A DNA stretch of 64,000 nt from the NCBI GenBank assembly GCA_022702935.2, contig JAKIML020000070.1, forward strand, positions 1-64,000. The letters run 5' to 3'. Below, piece after piece: positions 16,441-28,715 of the stretch; the first letter of the stretch is position 1, and the number at the start of each line of letters is the position of its first letter. Source of the DNA: Bacillota bacterium. Lineage in GTDB: Bacteria > Bacillota > Clostridia > DSM-8532. The notes beneath the pieces are model-generated. The model saw nothing but the letters and a program-made list of their open reading frames with translations, did no database searches and was not told the origin of the DNA. Both the position numbers and the translations under genes were made by a program.

Positions 16441-16475
16441 TAAAAGGGGCAGAGCTCCTGCTCTACCCCTTCTTA
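16441..16475 (-). terminator. Terminator shared by converging transcripts
   Basis: Ten-base arms AGGGGCAGAG (16445-16454) and CTCTACCCCT (16461-16470) around a 6-base loop. Pairing is complete on the minus strand (one G-T pair) and is followed there by TTTTAAG. The stop codon of the minus-strand YvyF-like gene (16463-16465) lies inside the stem. Confidence 0.7.
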
Positions 16476-16882
16476 TCTTTATTATCTCTGAATCGTATGC
16501 CTTTGGTTGTATGCTCTGCCGATTTTATGTAGGCGCTTTTGACGGCACCCTCTTCCTTATGCCGAAGGGCTTGCCCCTCCTTATAGCAGCCATCACAGAA
16601 TCTGCCGCTGTTAATGGCCTTGCCGCAAAGCTCACACTTGATAAAGCCCTTATTGTCCCCCACAATCTCAAGGCGCTCCTCCTTGAGATAGCGTTTAATG
16701 GATTTCAAATCCACATTAAGGTCACGCATCACTTCATTGGTGCTGGCACCCGGATGAAGGCTCAGGTACTCCTTAATTCTGGCAAATTCCTGCTCCTCAA
16801 TGGGAAAGCACCGGGGGCAGACAGCCTCAAAGGCTACTTTTTCAAAATATCTGTGACATCTGGCACATTCTATAGTCGCCAT
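16463..16882 (-). CDS. YvyF-like flagellar-operon zinc-ribbon protein (second copy)
   Basis: Paralogue of the YvyF-type protein encoded at 28238-28666. It has an N-terminal CxxC pair (CARC at residue 6, CPRC near 22), a central HTH-like segment (HPGASTNEVMRDLNVDLKSI) and a second zinc ribbon (CELCGKAINSGRFCDGC near 83-99). 139 residues. The family (flagellar operon protein) is thought to regulate late flagellar genes, but its mechanism is not established. It is last in the fliD-fliS-fliT transcript. The stop codon is embedded in a terminator stem. Confidence 0.8.
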   Translation of the reverse strand: MATIECARCHRYFEKVAFEAVCPRCFPIEEQEFARIKEYLSLHPGASTNEVMRDLNVDLKSIKRYLKEERLEIVGDNKGFIKCELCGKAINSGRFCDGCYKEGQALRHKEEGAVKSAYIKSAEHTTKGIRFRDNKDKKG

Positions 16883-22427: not shown

Positions 22428-23339
22428 TTATCTCAGGAAATCAACCAAAGAAGGCTGTATAACCCGGGCTCCGGTGGACAGGGATGCCTTGTAGACATTT
22501 TCCTCGTTCATCAGGTTCATAATGGCTTCTGCTATATCCACATCCTCATTCTTGCTCATCAGACGGGTAAAGTTTACATTGTCGTCATCCAGACGATTGG
22601 CGGTAAGCTCCACACGATTCATTCGTGCACCCAAGCCGGCTCTGACACGCAAAAGGTTGTTCATCTGCTCATCCAAATTCTCTACAAGGCCCGAAACTGC
22701 AGCGTTGTCTCCGCTTTGCATGGCCGCGATAATCTGATCAAAGGTATCCACAAAGCTGCTCTTTGTGGTGCCTCCGGTGGCGGGTGCACCGCTGTTGAAC
22801 AGGTCGCTTCCGGGAACGTTCACATTGATGTCATCCCCAATGCCTATCTCAAACTTGATCTGCTCACTGTTGGCCACATCAATATTGAAGGTGCCATCCT
22901 TGTTCAGAAGGGGCTTGTCGGTTTTATAGCCCGAGAAGATATAGCGTCCCGCATAGGTGGCATTGCCCAGGTTGATAAGTTGATCCCTCAACTGAGCTGC
23001 CTCTTCCTTAATCTTTTCCATATCCTCAGTGGTATTGGTTCCGTTGGCGGCTTGTACGGTGATTTCCCGCATACGCTGAACCACCTCGGTAATCTGATTC
23101 ATGGTGGCTTCGGTGATTTCCATCCAGTTGGTGGCATCATCGGTATTCCTTTTATATTGCTGAATCTCAGCCACATCGGTACGAAGCTTCAAGGACTTGG
23201 AGGCCACAATGGGATCGTCCGAAGGGAGGCTGATCTTCTTACCCGTCGCCAACTGCTCCTGATATTTGGCCGTTCTGGTCAAATTGTTGGACAGGCTCAA
23301 CATCATGTTATTTATCAGCATATTATTGGTAATTCTCAT
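22428..23339 (-). CDS. flgL: Hook-filament junction protein FlgL (hook-associated protein 3)
   Basis: Forms the second junction ring between hook and filament. Flagellin-like N-terminus (MRITNNMLINNMMLSLSNN) and C-terminus (ANIAKDK-free helical end AEAIMNLMNEENVYKASLSTGARV). 303 residues, normal size. AAGGAGG lies upstream of the ATG at 23339. It follows flgK by 14 bases. Confidence 0.95.
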   Translation of the reverse strand: MRITNNMLINNMMLSLSNNLTRTAKYQEQLATGKKISLPSDDPIVASKSLKLRTDVAEIQQYKRNTDDATNWMEITEATMNQITEVVQRMREITVQAANGTNTTEDMEKIKEEAAQLRDQLINLGNATYAGRYIFSGYKTDKPLLNKDGTFNIDVANSEQIKFEIGIGDDINVNVPGSDLFNSGAPATGGTTKSSFVDTFDQIIAAMQSGDNAAVSGLVENLDEQMNNLLRVRAGLGARMNRVELTANRLDDDNVNFTRLMSKNEDVDIAEAIMNLMNEENVYKASLSTGARVIQPSLVDFLR

Positions 23340-23353
23340 AAATCCTTACCTCC

Positions 23354-25027
23354 TTAGATTCCCATACGATTTATCAGAATATCCAGCACATCGCCGTAGG
23401 TCTGGATCATCTTGGCCGAAGCGCCATAGATCTGATAATACTTGACCAGATTGGTCATTTCCTCGTTGAGGGAAACCCCTGAAATGGATTGTCTCCGGTT
23501 TATAATCTGATTGGTGATGCCCTCCTGGACGCTGAGGTACTGTTCATATTGCTGTCCATCAACACCCATGGTGGAAATCAGGGTCTTGATGAAGTCCTCG
23601 GGCGTACCTTCCTTGAACATATAGGTGTTATGACGCATTTTCATAAGGTTTGCGAGAACCTCATTGTTTCCCACCTGGCCGGCAACCGAGGAGGCCGAGA
23701 TATTATTGCTGGGATTGTCCTCCACATCAAAGCTGATGGAGAAGTTCCGGGCATTGATCAGCCGATAGCCTGCAACCAGCCGCTCATCATAAGGGGTGGA
23801 AGGATCATCGGTGATACCCTGCTTGGCGGCATAGGCCAGAACCTCATTGAGGAAGGCATTGCTGTCCATGGGTTTTCCGTCAGAGCCCAGCATGGTGAAG
23901 AAGCGGATGCCCGACTCGGGGTCCCCATCCACTGAATTAAGCTTGTAGCCGTTGACATGGCCGACGGTTTTATCAAATTCACCGTCACCGTTGGTGTCCA
24001 TAATACCCTCATTGAAGGACATGGCAAACATCCAAACAAACTCATTCATTTTTCTCTGATAATAGGGAATGCCCTTGCATTCGGGACTGGGTTGTCTGTT
24101 CAGCCCCGGAACACCGTCATTGCCGTCCCGCATATCCAGATAGCCTTTTAATTCCCCGGACTTTACATTAAGCTTATTGCCATCCTCCCAGGATACCTCA
24201 TAGAGATGGTTGATATCCTCGGCATTAAGGTTTTCCTTACGGCTCTCACATTTTAAGTGGACCACATCGGCATGATCTACCAGAGCCTTGCCGCTGATGG
24301 TAACCATAAAACGTTTTTCAGGTTCCCCGTTGGGAAGCTTCAAGCCTGTCTCCACTTCATAGGCGCTGCAGTTCACAAGCTGGGAGAGCTGATCCACAAG
24401 ATGCCCCCGGCGATCCCTCAGATCATTGGCTTTATTGCCCATGATCTCGTAGTTATAGATTTGAAGGTTCAAATCCCGGATCTGATCGGCCAGCGTATTG
24501 ATTTGCTCCACCTTGGAGTAGACCATATTGTTAAGGTCCTCCTGCAGCTTATCAAAGTGTTTGGCCACACTGTTAAAGTACTTGGCAACGGCTACCCCCT
24601 TCTCCATAACCATGGCTCTGGTCGCGTGGCTGGAGGGATCGGTGGAAAGCTGCTGCAAGGCACTGTAGAACTCATTGATTATCTTGGTATACCCATTGTC
24701 GCTGGGTTCATTGTATATGGTCTGCATATCCTCGATGATGGTGGCCTTAACAGTCCATTCACCGAGATATTTGGCTTCACTCCAATATTTTTCATCCAGG
24801 TATTGATCCCTTACCCGGTCCACACTGATGACATCCGAACCCATACCCAGCATGCCCGCGCCGCTGGCCACCAAAAGGGGTCGTGCTGCCACCTGATTGA
24901 CAACCTGCCTGGAATAGCCCGGTGTGTTGGTATTATCCACGTTATGGCTGACATTGGCCATACCGCGCTGTGAGGAGTACAGGCCCCGCAGGGCTATCTC
25001 CATGCCCATAAAGGTGGTATTATTCAT
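23354..25027 (-). CDS. flgK: Hook-associated protein FlgK (canonical copy)
   Basis: First junction protein between hook and filament. N-terminal rod/hook signature (GLYSSQRGMANVSHNVDNTNTPGYSRQ) and C-terminal helices (VSLNEEMTNLVKYYQIYGASAKMIQTYGDVLDILI) are clear. 557 residues, normal. AGGTG precedes the ATG at 25027. The Asn of the usual HNIANANTPGY motif is present in variant form. A second, larger FlgK-type gene is immediately upstream, separated by 77 bases. Confidence 0.95.
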   Translation of the reverse strand: MNNTTFMGMEIALRGLYSSQRGMANVSHNVDNTNTPGYSRQVVNQVAARPLLVASGAGMLGMGSDVISVDRVRDQYLDEKYWSEAKYLGEWTVKATIIEDMQTIYNEPSDNGYTKIINEFYSALQQLSTDPSSHATRAMVMEKGVAVAKYFNSVAKHFDKLQEDLNNMVYSKVEQINTLADQIRDLNLQIYNYEIMGNKANDLRDRRGHLVDQLSQLVNCSAYEVETGLKLPNGEPEKRFMVTISGKALVDHADVVHLKCESRKENLNAEDINHLYEVSWEDGNKLNVKSGELKGYLDMRDGNDGVPGLNRQPSPECKGIPYYQRKMNEFVWMFAMSFNEGIMDTNGDGEFDKTVGHVNGYKLNSVDGDPESGIRFFTMLGSDGKPMDSNAFLNEVLAYAAKQGITDDPSTPYDERLVAGYRLINARNFSISFDVEDNPSNNISASSVAGQVGNNEVLANLMKMRHNTYMFKEGTPEDFIKTLISTMGVDGQQYEQYLSVQEGITNQIINRRQSISGVSLNEEMTNLVKYYQIYGASAKMIQTYGDVLDILINRMGI

Positions 25028-25104: not shown

Positions 25105-27153
25105 TTAAGCGCCCAATCTGAAGATGATGGTTTCAAGCATCTGGTTAACCACGTCGATAACCTTGGAATTAGCATTATAGGCGTATTTAAACTTGATCAT
25201 ATTGGTCATTTCCTCATCCAGGGAGACCCCCATAATGCTCTGGCGCATGGCATCGGCCTGCTGAACCAGAAGCTGATAGCTTTCCATCATGCCCGCGGCC
25301 TCATTGCCCTTGTTGCCCACATCCATAATGAGGTTCTGATAATAGGTATCCAGACTCAAGACCTTATTATTTCCGGTCATAAGCTCGGCATTGCGCAGGT
25401 TGGCAATGGCCAGGGCAATGGTATTGTCCCCGTTGGCATCTATGGTGGATGCGGCGATATAGTTCACATCCTTTAAGGCGTCGTTCACCTTAATATTGCC
25501 CATCTGAATGGGCATGGTAGAATTAGCGGCCTCAAAGAAGAGGCCCCCGTCCGCGCCCGTCAGGGTTTTCCCCGACAGATGCAGATAGTTGATTTCCCTT
25601 GCCATAATATTGATAAGCGCATTCAACTGCCGTTTCACCGAGGAGATGATGTTCAGGTTGTCGGGTACGGTGGACATTTTCATGTTCACATCCCCGTTGA
25701 TGTCCTTGGAGATTTGCTCCATCAGCCCTTTGTAGTCGGCAGTTCCGATATCATAGAGCTTACCGCCTGTCTGTTCGGCAAAAAAGCCCCAGCCTGCCTC
25801 GCCCGCATTGCCCTGATCATGATAGATGGGGTTGGTGGCGATGGAAACCGTCATACCAAGCTTCTTCAGGGTATTGAGATATTGGGTCGTATCATCACTG
25901 TCGGTGGTGGTCTCATCCCCATCAAGGCTCTCATTGGTAAAGACCATCAAGTATTTATTCACATCTTTGCCGTAGCTGTTGCTGTTGACGGCATTGATAA
26001 CATCGGCAAAATTATTGCTGTTGCCCGCATCGGGGGTATCGGGAATGGCACTGCACAGGGCAGCGGCATCCCTGCCGTAATTCACATTGGTCACAGCCCC
26101 CGACCCGCCAAAGAGAACCAGCCTCAGATTATAGTTGAGGCCTCTTTTTTCAAGATCCTTGGCCAGAGCCTCCACCTGATCCTTAACATTGGCCAGATAG
26201 GACGCACTGGTATCGGAGATATCCACGGCAATGGTCACATCGGCCGTGGTATTGGGAGAGCCATTGTCATAGCTGTCCTTGGCGCCATTGACCTCGCCCC
26301 TGGCCTCCAACAGGCCCTTGATAATCCCCTGGCCTACGTCAATATCAATATTTCCGTTGGGATCATACAGCTTGGGCGTATAGAAATGGGAATACTCCCC
26401 GTTGGGCTCAGCCACAAGGTTGGTGGATCTGCCCTTGCTGACTAAGTAATAGCCATCCAGAAGCACATCCATGCTCCCCTCCTGGGTATACCAGGTCTCG
26501 CACTTCACGAGCTTGGAAAGCTGGTCCACCAGATAATTTCTCTGATCCAGATAGTCGTTGGGCGAGTTGCCCGCTGCCACTGCACTCATGATATCCACAT
26601 TGAGTTTGGCAATCTTCTGGGTGATGGTATTGACCTCATCGATTTTAAGTTTAATTTCGTTGTTCAGATCACTCTGAAGCTTATCGATCTGGCTTCCCAC
26701 ATGATTGAGGTAATTGGCCAGAGAATCGGCCCGCTGCTTAACAAGGGCACGAATGGTGAGGCTCTCAGGGGCCTTGCTGAGCTCCTGGAAGGAATCCCAG
26801 AAGTTATTCATAGCCACCTGGAAGCCCTGCTTCATGGGCTCCCCTAAAATGCTCTCCAAATCGGTAACGGCCTTGTACCGGCTTTCCCAATAACCCAGGG
26901 CATTGCTCTCAGTCCGGAATATATTATCGTTAAAGATATGGCGGATCTGGCGGATTTCCTGGACATCACAGCCCATCTCCACCACCCAGTTATTGCCGTA
27001 ACTGCGTGTTGCAGCAGAGGCCATAATGGCACTTTGGCGTGAGAATCCGGGAGTTCCCAGGTTGGAAACATTATGACCGGTAACCTCCAGCGCCTTCTGG
27101 TTGGCAAATAAGCCTGACAACGCCGTATCCAATCCAAAAAAACTGATGGACAT
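25105..27153 (-). CDS. FlgK-type hook-associated protein with inserted vWA-like domain
   Basis: A 682-residue FlgK paralogue. Residues 1-290 are FlgK-like (TGHNVSNLGTPGFSRQ near 25; helical core; GIIKGLLEARGEVNG near 276), and residues 500-682 resume FlgK (INIMAREINYLHLSG; VSLDEEMTNMIKFKYAYNANSKVIDVVNQMLETII). Between them, about residues 304-485, is an alpha/beta domain resembling von Willebrand factor A: TIAVDISDTS gives a partial MIDAS (D311, S313, Thr at the fifth position), then LRLVLFGG and YLMVFTNES strands, with Asn where the metal-binding Asp of the third loop is expected. AGGAGG lies upstream of the ATG. It precedes normal flgK, so the cell may build a junction with two FlgK types or a modified one. 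Confidence 0.85.
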   Translation of the reverse strand: MSISFFGLDTALSGLFANQKALEVTGHNVSNLGTPGFSRQSAIMASAATRSYGNNWVVEMGCDVQEIRQIRHIFNDNIFRTESNALGYWESRYKAVTDLESILGEPMKQGFQVAMNNFWDSFQELSKAPESLTIRALVKQRADSLANYLNHVGSQIDKLQSDLNNEIKLKIDEVNTITQKIAKLNVDIMSAVAAGNSPNDYLDQRNYLVDQLSKLVKCETWYTQEGSMDVLLDGYYLVSKGRSTNLVAEPNGEYSHFYTPKLYDPNGNIDIDVGQGIIKGLLEARGEVNGAKDSYDNGSPNTTADVTIAVDISDTSASYLANVKDQVEALAKDLEKRGLNYNLRLVLFGGSGAVTNVNYGRDAAALCSAIPDTPDAGNSNNFADVINAVNSNSYGKDVNKYLMVFTNESLDGDETTTDSDDTTQYLNTLKKLGMTVSIATNPIYHDQGNAGEAGWGFFAEQTGGKLYDIGTADYKGLMEQISKDINGDVNMKMSTVPDNLNIISSVKRQLNALINIMAREINYLHLSGKTLTGADGGLFFEAANSTMPIQMGNIKVNDALKDVNYIAASTIDANGDNTIALAIANLRNAELMTGNNKVLSLDTYYQNLIMDVGNKGNEAAGMMESYQLLVQQADAMRQSIMGVSLDEEMTNMIKFKYAYNANSKVIDVVNQMLETIIFRLGA

Positions 27154-27170: not shown

Positions 27171-27677
27171 TTAATACTTAAGGTCCAGCATGCTGCGTTT
27201 GGTGTTCTGCGATAATTCCTGCCCGGTTTTCCCATAGAGCGGTACCGAAGGCTGTGGAGAGGAAATAAGCTGTATGCTGAAATCCAAGGTCTCCATAGCA
27301 TTCTCTATGAGCCTTTGATTATAGCTGTTCTGGACAGCAAGCTTTTGAATGAGCGGATTGAGCTTTAACCGCACTTCCTCCAGAGCCTTTTTATAGGGCT
27401 CCTCAACATAATCCTTCAGCTTCTCCAGGGTAAGGGTTTTATAATCAAGCTGGGCTGCTTCGCATATCTGCGACAGAAGCTGCTCCCGCACCTGGTTAAG
27501 CTTTAAGGTCTGCTCAGCGGCCTTTTTCTCTTCCTCATTAATGGCCATGAGCTGTTCTATATCATTCTTAATCAGGCAATCGGTCTTCCTCACTGCCAGC
27601 TTCAGGATGCCTGAATAGGTCTTGTATTCGTATTGCAGGGCCTTTATCAGGTTTTCTATCAATTTGGTTTCTATCAT
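27171..27677 (-). CDS. flgN: FlgN family flagellar export chaperone
   Basis: Chaperone for FlgK and FlgL. A 168-residue helical protein beginning MIETKLIENLIKALQYEYKTYSGIL, with a long helical hairpin (residues 1-120) and a C-terminal tail (LYGKTGQELSQNTKRSMLDLKY) of the kind that folds on client binding. The ATG at 27677 has GGGAGG upstream; the longer frame to 27731 runs into a promoter. Located between flgM and the FlgK-type genes, as in B. subtilis. Confidence 0.85.
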   Translation of the reverse strand: MIETKLIENLIKALQYEYKTYSGILKLAVRKTDCLIKNDIEQLMAINEEEKKAAEQTLKLNQVREQLLSQICEAAQLDYKTLTLEKLKDYVEEPYKKALEEVRLKLNPLIQKLAVQNSYNQRLIENAMETLDFSIQLISSPQPSVPLYGKTGQELSQNTKRSMLDLKY

Positions 27678-27721
27678 GGTCTTCCTCCCTTGTGGGGACG
27701 TCAATATAATCCTCACCCTAT

Positions 27722-27748
27722 TTATCGGCATGAATTAAAAACGGGATA
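27722..27748 (-). promoter_or_regulatory. Candidate sigma-D promoter before flgN
   Basis: A perfect sigma-D -10 element GCCGATAA on the minus strand (27729-27722), 45 bases before the flgN start. Fifteen bases upstream the -35 reads TATC rather than TAAA, so the match is incomplete. It follows directly on the flgM terminator, which makes a new start here sensible. Confidence 0.5.
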
Positions 27749-27792: not shown

Positions 27793-28071
27793 CTACAGAT
27801 TAAGTGTCTTAATCATTTTGTCGGCTATATCGCTGGATGAAACTGAGTAATTTCCATTTTCCATTTTTTGCAGAATCTCATTAACCCTATCTTCACGGAT
27901 ATCAGGAACCTGTCTTAATGCTTTCATAACAACATTAAAATCCTTAGCCGCTCCCGAAATGGTTAATTCATCCTTTTTCGAAGCAACCTTTCCCAATTTT
28001 GAGGTTCTGTCAACCTTATTTGTGCTGCCATAGATACCGGATACCTTGGGAATATTTCCCCAAATCTTCAT
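27793..28071 (-). CDS. flgM: Anti-sigma-28 factor FlgM
   Basis: Binds and holds sigma-D inactive until the hook is complete. 92 residues with the family C-terminal pattern: DELTISGAAKDFNVVMKALRQ, then IREDRVNEILQKMENGNYSVSSSDIADKMI. The ATG at 28071 has AGGAGAGGG upstream. A candidate sigma-D promoter upstream would give the usual feedback loop. Confidence 0.93.
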   Translation of the reverse strand: MKIWGNIPKVSGIYGSTNKVDRTSKLGKVASKKDELTISGAAKDFNVVMKALRQVPDIREDRVNEILQKMENGNYSVSSSDIADKMIKTLNL

Positions 28072-28237: not shown

Positions 28238-28666
28238 TTATTTATCTTTACGTTCTCCATGCAAATAGCGCAGCCCCACGTTGTCCTTATCTCTGCTGAC
28301 CTCGCTTCTCAGGACATCGTTGAGACTTCTTCCCGCATTGAGCATATCCCTTGCAAGGCGCTTCGAACACTCAATGCAGAAGCGGCCGCTTCTGATTCTG
28401 ACACCGCAGTTTTCGCATTGCAGGGTTATGGGGCTCTCGTCGGAAACCTCCAGCCTGCCTTCTCGTAAAAAGCGGTAGATCAAGGTTGTGGGTACTTCAG
28501 TCGCAGCGGATACCTCCTGAATGGTGGCTCCCGGGTAATCCTTAACAAAGCGTCTTACCTTTTCATAGTCCTCTTCCTCACGCTTTTTACATTCATCGCA
28601 GATCTGAGGCCCTAAGACATACATGAAAATCTTCTTACACCTTTTGCAGTTCCTGACTTCCGGCAT
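28238..28666 (-). CDS. yvyF: YvyF-type flagellar-operon zinc-ribbon protein (first copy)
   Basis: Conserved protein found between comF and flgM in Firmicutes. It has an N-terminal CKRCK/CDEC zinc site (near residues 7-27), a central HTH-like part (YPGATIQEVSAATEVPTTLIYRFL) and a second zinc ribbon (CENCGVRIRSGRFCIEC near 82-98). About 142 residues from the ATG at 28666, which has GGGGGAT upstream. Thought to be regulatory; mechanism unproven. A paralogue lies at the other end of the flagellar cluster (16463-16882). Confidence 0.85.
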   Translation of the reverse strand: MPEVRNCKRCKKIFMYVLGPQICDECKKREEEDYEKVRRFVKDYPGATIQEVSAATEVPTTLIYRFLREGRLEVSDESPITLQCENCGVRIRSGRFCIECSKRLARDMLNAGRSLNDVLRSEVSRDKDNVGLRYLHGERKDK

Positions 28667-28715
28667 AAAGTATCCCCCATTCAATATAATAACATATCAT
28701 ACATATTCTATATCG

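Follow-up and report, generated by a model that had tools for sequence, protein, structure and literature searches.

The window (the whole stretch of 64,000 nucleotides that was analyzed) comes from a relative of Thermoclostridium caenicola and carries flagellar genes in the order flgM-flgN-flgK1-flgK2-flgL-fliW-csrA around the open reading frame at 25105 to 27153. The labels flgM, flgN, fliW, and csrA are ones that we assume from position. The flgK1 gene begins with an ATG at 27153 on the minus strand, with GGAGGAAGGGT upstream of the start, and its stop codon lies at 25105 to 25107. The features of the locus are as follows.

25105 to 27153, minus strand: flgK1, FlgK with a predicted vWA domain, 682 amino acids (TIGR02492, 294.9 bits; FlgK_D1; Flg_bbr_C)
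26299 to 27153, minus strand: FlgK N-terminal core, residues 1 to 285, comprising D0, D1a helices, D1b, and the first turns of helix alpha-6 (Pfam/NCBIfam, AlphaFold model, match to Salmonella and Campylobacter FlgK)
26251 to 26298, minus strand: conserved linker, residues 286 to 301, GEVNGAKDSYDNGSPN (conservation; same linker without vWA in FlgK1 of group f22)
25672 to 26250, minus strand: predicted vWA domain, residues 302 to 494 (AlphaFold, Foldseek, VIA Z score of 18.9, PF00092 in orthologues)
26209 to 26223, minus strand: remnant MIDAS motif D311-x-S313-x-T315 (residue counts in 36 FlgK1 sequences)
25108 to 25671, minus strand: return linker (495 to 501), remaining helix alpha-6/7, D2, and C-terminal D1a/D0 core, residues 495 to 682 (domain matches, AlphaFold, VIA)
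23354 to 25027, minus strand: flgK2, ordinary FlgK paralogue without vWA, 557 amino acids (TIGR02492, 290.6 bits; AlphaFold model without the vWA order of elements; separate clade)
27171 to 27731, minus strand: flgN-like chaperone gene upstream of flgK1 (by position and length only)
27793 to 28071, minus strand: flgM-like gene (by position and length only)
22428 to 23339, minus strand: flgL, second hook-filament junction gene (Flagellin_N and Flagellin_C matches; operon position after flgK2)

The TIGR02492 match to FlgK1 was full length and exceeded the cutoff of 170.75 bits, and the Pfam/NCBIfam search placed FlgK_D1 at residues 97 to 295 and Flg_bbr_C at residues 641 to 677. The D0/D1a/D1b core of the FlgK1 model aligned with Salmonella and Burkholderia FlgK at VIA-align Z scores of 31 to 34 (Salmonella, 34), and a small separate D2 was still present in the AlphaFold model at about residues 527 to 600. 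These matches bore out the complete N- and C-terminal FlgK core described in an earlier note on this DNA, and the ordinary flgK that the note had placed beside it was likewise found: the adjacent flgK2 was the sole other FlgK gene detected when the host genome was searched. A single FlgE was found in that genome, and both FlgK copies would therefore serve one hook type. Two small, Cys-rich, paralogue-like open reading frames on the minus strand (16463 to 16882 and 28238 to 28684, 139 and 148 amino acids) flank the flagellar cluster and are possibly YvyF-like.

Structure and position of the FlgK1 insert

The core of FlgK1 was interrupted at residues 286 to 501 by a linker and a predicted vWA domain (about 302 to 494), so that the insert comes to about 215 extra residues and the earlier figure of about 180 was too short. 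The AlphaFold2 model, made with 34 sequences, had a mean pLDDT of 84.7 and at residues 303 to 494 showed the strand and helix order typical of vWA domains, with block pLDDT values mostly between 80 and 91. A Foldseek search with this model ranked FlgK chains at the top, followed by vWA proteins (LapA vWFA, BatB, TFIIH p44, Ku, integrins, and vWF A1), and SpaC was also present among the structural matches. When aligned by VIA-align, model residues 301 to 490 (approximately) matched TFIIH p44 with a Z score of 18.9 and an rmsd of 2.6 over 174 residues, Rpn10 and integrin I domains gave Z scores of about 16.6 to 17.7, and with other matches included the range was about 16 to 18. Pfam VWA (PF00092) gave no match to the window FlgK1 protein at an E value of ≤1, and a profile of the insert alignment found nothing among PDB sequences at an E value of ≤0.1; the vWA homology thus rests on the fold and on Pfam matches in orthologues. 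PF00092 matched 11 of 25 FlgK1 orthologues, the best at 38.5 bits over 171 of 174 model positions, and the inserts of L087 (38.5 bits), L104 (33.2), and L090 (30.0) exceeded its cutoff of 23.8. Taken from these models and matches, the insert is almost certainly a vWA domain. The vWA-like fold suspected in the earlier note was thereby upheld, and the structure prediction that it had proposed as a check gave, within full-length FlgK1, a Rossmann-like alpha/beta fold of the vWA type. That the insert might instead be an enlarged form of the normal FlgK D2/D3 beta-domain, which would suit both the frequency of large D2/D3 domains in FlgK (PMC5691160) and the missing Pfam VWA match of the window protein, is ruled out as extremely improbable by the alpha/beta vWA fold that AlphaFold, Foldseek, and VIA all gave at residues 301 to 494, by the orthologues that exceed the PF00092 cutoff, and by the small separate D2 that FlgK1 retains. 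No enzyme family matched the insert in the Pfam search of the window protein and its orthologues, nor was a catalytic domain of the flagellinolysin type found there.

In the AlphaFold model, helix alpha-6 runs from residue 277 to 285, gives way to the insert, and resumes at 502 to 526. The insert therefore splits helix alpha-6 of D1a directly after D1b and outside D2/D3, beginning after the residue equivalent to about position 287 of Salmonella FlgK, and does not occupy a normally short FlgK loop as had been supposed. In Campylobacter FlgK, the segment that follows D1b (Gln291 to Ser339) is a helix divided by a 14-residue insert (Gly300 to Gly313), and the same helix is unbroken in Salmonella and Burkholderia FlgK (PMC5691160). 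From these descriptions, we infer that the two insertion sites are equivalent. The FlgK2 model also had a short break at the corresponding place. In solved FlgK structures, the outer face of the ring is formed by D1b and D2 (PMC5691160; PMC12221982), with D1b on the hook side (PMC5691160); because of this arrangement, it is reasonable to infer that the vWA domain is displayed at the hook-filament junction.

Conservation of the insert and its history in Clostridia

Conservation and MIDAS residues were assessed over 36 FlgK1 sequences. The linker (residues 287 to 301) had a mean of 3.44 bits and helix alpha-6 a mean of 3.69 bits, compared with 2.33 bits for the vWA domain, the lowest of all regions, which indicated that the attachment is constrained. 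Three vWA residues (D311, W455, and G464) were invariant. The window FlgK1 has the motif D-x-S-x-T, lacks the MIDAS Thr, and has Asn where the second Asp would be; the FlgK1 vWA domains thus depart from the canonical MIDAS set of D-x-S-x-S, Thr, and Asp in three loops. Asp311 was found in all 36 sequences, Ser313 in 32, and Ser or Thr at position 315 in 16; loop 2 had no Thr consensus, and Asp at position 407 (the second Asp) occurred in 7/36. With the Thr and the second Asp mostly absent, classical MIDAS metal binding is unlikely to be general in the FlgK1 vWA, judging from residue identities. Asp311 and Ser313 are still conserved, and some metal binding may occur. Of the partial MIDAS proposed earlier (D311, S313, and Thr), the degenerate state and the first two residues were retained in this comparison, and the MIDAS Thr was not.

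The insert profile matched 29 of the 33 genomes sampled from the order, some of them partially and one (G010) only in flanking residues, and further matches to the insert were found in family-level groups f24, f26, f54, f64, f76, f80, and f87 of the class. In the tree, FlgK1 and FlgK2 formed separate clades, both of them common to Clostridia without vWA, and the vWA-bearing FlgK1 proteins formed one clade (support, 100/100), as did the FlgK1 vWA domains themselves. Group f22, with two FlgK proteins and no vWA, branched ahead of the vWA clade in both halves of the tree. On the evidence of this tree, FlgK1 and FlgK2 are ancient paralogues. The FlgK1 vWA was gained once, in an ancestor from which nine or more family-level groups of Clostridia descend, with a few subsequent losses or truncations. 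A recent flgK duplication is ruled out by the separate clades. The phylogeny of both copies that the earlier note had called for therefore agreed with its order of events, duplication followed by domain gain, and moved the duplication back to an ancient date. The domain has been lost from FlgK1 in L180, where a stump is left, and in L112, which has no stump and is weakly placed; in L012 (377 to 2350, plus strand) and L172, part of the vWA core is deleted. The FlgK1 proteins of f22 carry the same linker (RGDVAGYKGSVENGS...) without vWA, which indicated either that the linker came first or that f22 lost the domain. In plasmid searches, neither query was covered to 80% by any FlgK, and hence no vWA-bearing FlgK was found there. 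Two observations concern individual members of these groups. The FlgK pair of L173 (contig C71 of G010, labeled as the same genus) grouped with family f22 on long branches and probably represents a foreign contig in the assembly. The FlgK2 proteins of f24 are enlarged to 703 to 714 amino acids (L170, 4419 to 6561; L171, 2907 to 5016; minus strand, 0-based on the reverse complement).

vWA domains in other flagellar axial proteins

A vWA domain at another site was found in FlgK of Peribacillus acanthi (L017:6001-8163:+, 721 amino acids), where VWA matched residues 380 to 554 of the D2 region at 50 bits with the motif D-N-T-G-S-M. Among 43 genomes of the P. acanthi family, the match covered the vWA only in L017, and three other matches were confined to the query's FlgK end. 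FlgK of a distant Bacillota genome, G715 (L157:139-2586:+, 816 amino acids), has a D2-region vWA that is 48% identical to that of P. acanthi and was not found in the other 12 genomes of the G715 order. In a third lineage, the vWA forms the hypervariable region of a flagellin (G453, L199:1072-2502:+, 477 amino acids; Flagellin_N, 3 to 136; VWA, 151 to 299; Flagellin_C, 392 to 475). The vWA domains of these three proteins carry a DxTxS MIDAS motif (D-N-T-G/S-S) and formed one clade (100/99) separate from the FlgK1 vWA domains. At least two entries of vWA into flagellar axial proteins have thus taken place. The patchy spread of the D2-site form among the sampled genomes suggests horizontal transfer; it may reflect a single gain with such transfer or repeated insertion. 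In every other case examined, the D2-type vWA profile had matched a surface or secreted protein and not a flagellar one. Separately, Syntrophomonas-type FlgK proteins of 841 to 846 amino acids (L035:676-3198:+ and L060:5992-8529:+) have several hundred extra residues that matched no Pfam family.

Discussion

Domain insertions are known in flagellins. A literature search found no paper on a FlgK with a vWA domain or on a vWA flagellin, and a protein-binding vWA built into the hook-filament junction would thus be without an earlier report that we could find; one article names both FlgK and vWA, for different organisms (PMC12008871). FlgK1 shares with FlgK (HAP1, TIGR02492) the whole core, the operon position, and the structure, but HAP1 lacks the approximately 215 extra residues with a vWA at helix alpha-6. 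Flagellinolysin likewise places a foreign globular domain in a flagellar axial protein, but there it is a metallopeptidase in flagellin, present in thousands of copies, whereas the vWA of FlgK1 is nonenzymatic and would be present in few (PMC5595980). Two consecutive, nonidentical flgK genes, as found here and in vWA-free f22, have been published for Roseburia/Eubacterium, with no vWA reported for those (PMC3720852); in FlgK1 of f22, the short linker is all that occupies the site. The D2-site FlgK proteins and the flagellin resemble FlgK1 in bearing vWA on an axial protein but differ in vWA subtype (DxTxS), site, and clade.

The vWA domains of TFIIH p44 and Rpn10 are protein-binding scaffolds; they share the fold of the insert and are its best structural matches, but they belong to cytosolic or nuclear complexes of unrelated context. 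FlgK1 would be a genuine hook-filament junction subunit with all FlgK core domains; presumably it has FlgN as its export partner and is added to the hook tip as any FlgK would be. Held on two short linkers at the broken helix alpha-6 beside D1b, the vWA would point outward from the junction, with one domain per FlgK1 subunit and up to 11 if the whole ring consisted of FlgK1. Our tentative preference, over an external ligand or mere decoration, is that this outward-facing domain is a largely metal-independent protein-binding module whose partner lies within the flagellum (neighboring FlgK1 or FlgK2, FlgE, or FlgL), which would build a collar round the junction. Counted in favor of this mechanism are the complete FlgK core together with the vWA fold, the alpha-6 site at which Campylobacter FlgK also bears an insert, the location of D1b and D2 on the outer face of the ring, the conserved and hence constrained attachment, the one gain with few losses, the many scaffold vWA domains (TFIIH p44 and Rpn10) among the closest structures, the single FlgE that puts both FlgK copies on one hook type, and the independent addition of vWA to FlgK and flagellin elsewhere. 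Against it, divergence is faster in the vWA than in the core, and the domain is incomplete or missing in L012, L172, L180, and L112, a pattern that fits relaxed constraint as well as binding. Modeling in Salmonella suggests a clash between stacked FlgK layers (PMC12221982); therefore, two layers seem less likely than a mixed ring of FlgK1 and FlgK2 or alternative rings.

Our second choice, and a less probable one, is that the vWA binds an extracellular ligand (a plant polymer, partner cell, sheath, or surface protein) and makes the flagellar base sticky. Such a role would accord with the vWA domains of the bacterial adhesins LapA and SpaC, both of them structural matches, with the rank of the vWA as the fastest-changing region of FlgK1, and with the independent insertions in FlgK and flagellin that carry a DxTxS MIDAS; however, at most 11 copies near the cell are poorly placed for adhesion compared with the filament, and the FlgK1 MIDAS is degenerate. 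It is quite improbable that the domain is a passive decoration, an old insertion tolerated at a permissive site because assembly is undisturbed: the faster divergence, the truncated copies, and the at least two losses would be expected of one, but nine or more family-level groups have retained the domain, and D311, W455, and G464 are invariant in it.

Beyond the internal-partner mechanism that we prefer for FlgK1, vWA might conceivably be a recurrent and partly horizontally shared module of axial proteins (FlgK at two sites and flagellin) that makes the junction or filament a protein-binding, possibly force-sensitive surface; we regard this broader proposal as rather doubtful. Closed genomes are among those with a vWA-bearing FlgK1, and the role of the vWA and of the ancient FlgK1/FlgK2 pair is thus open to deletion tests.
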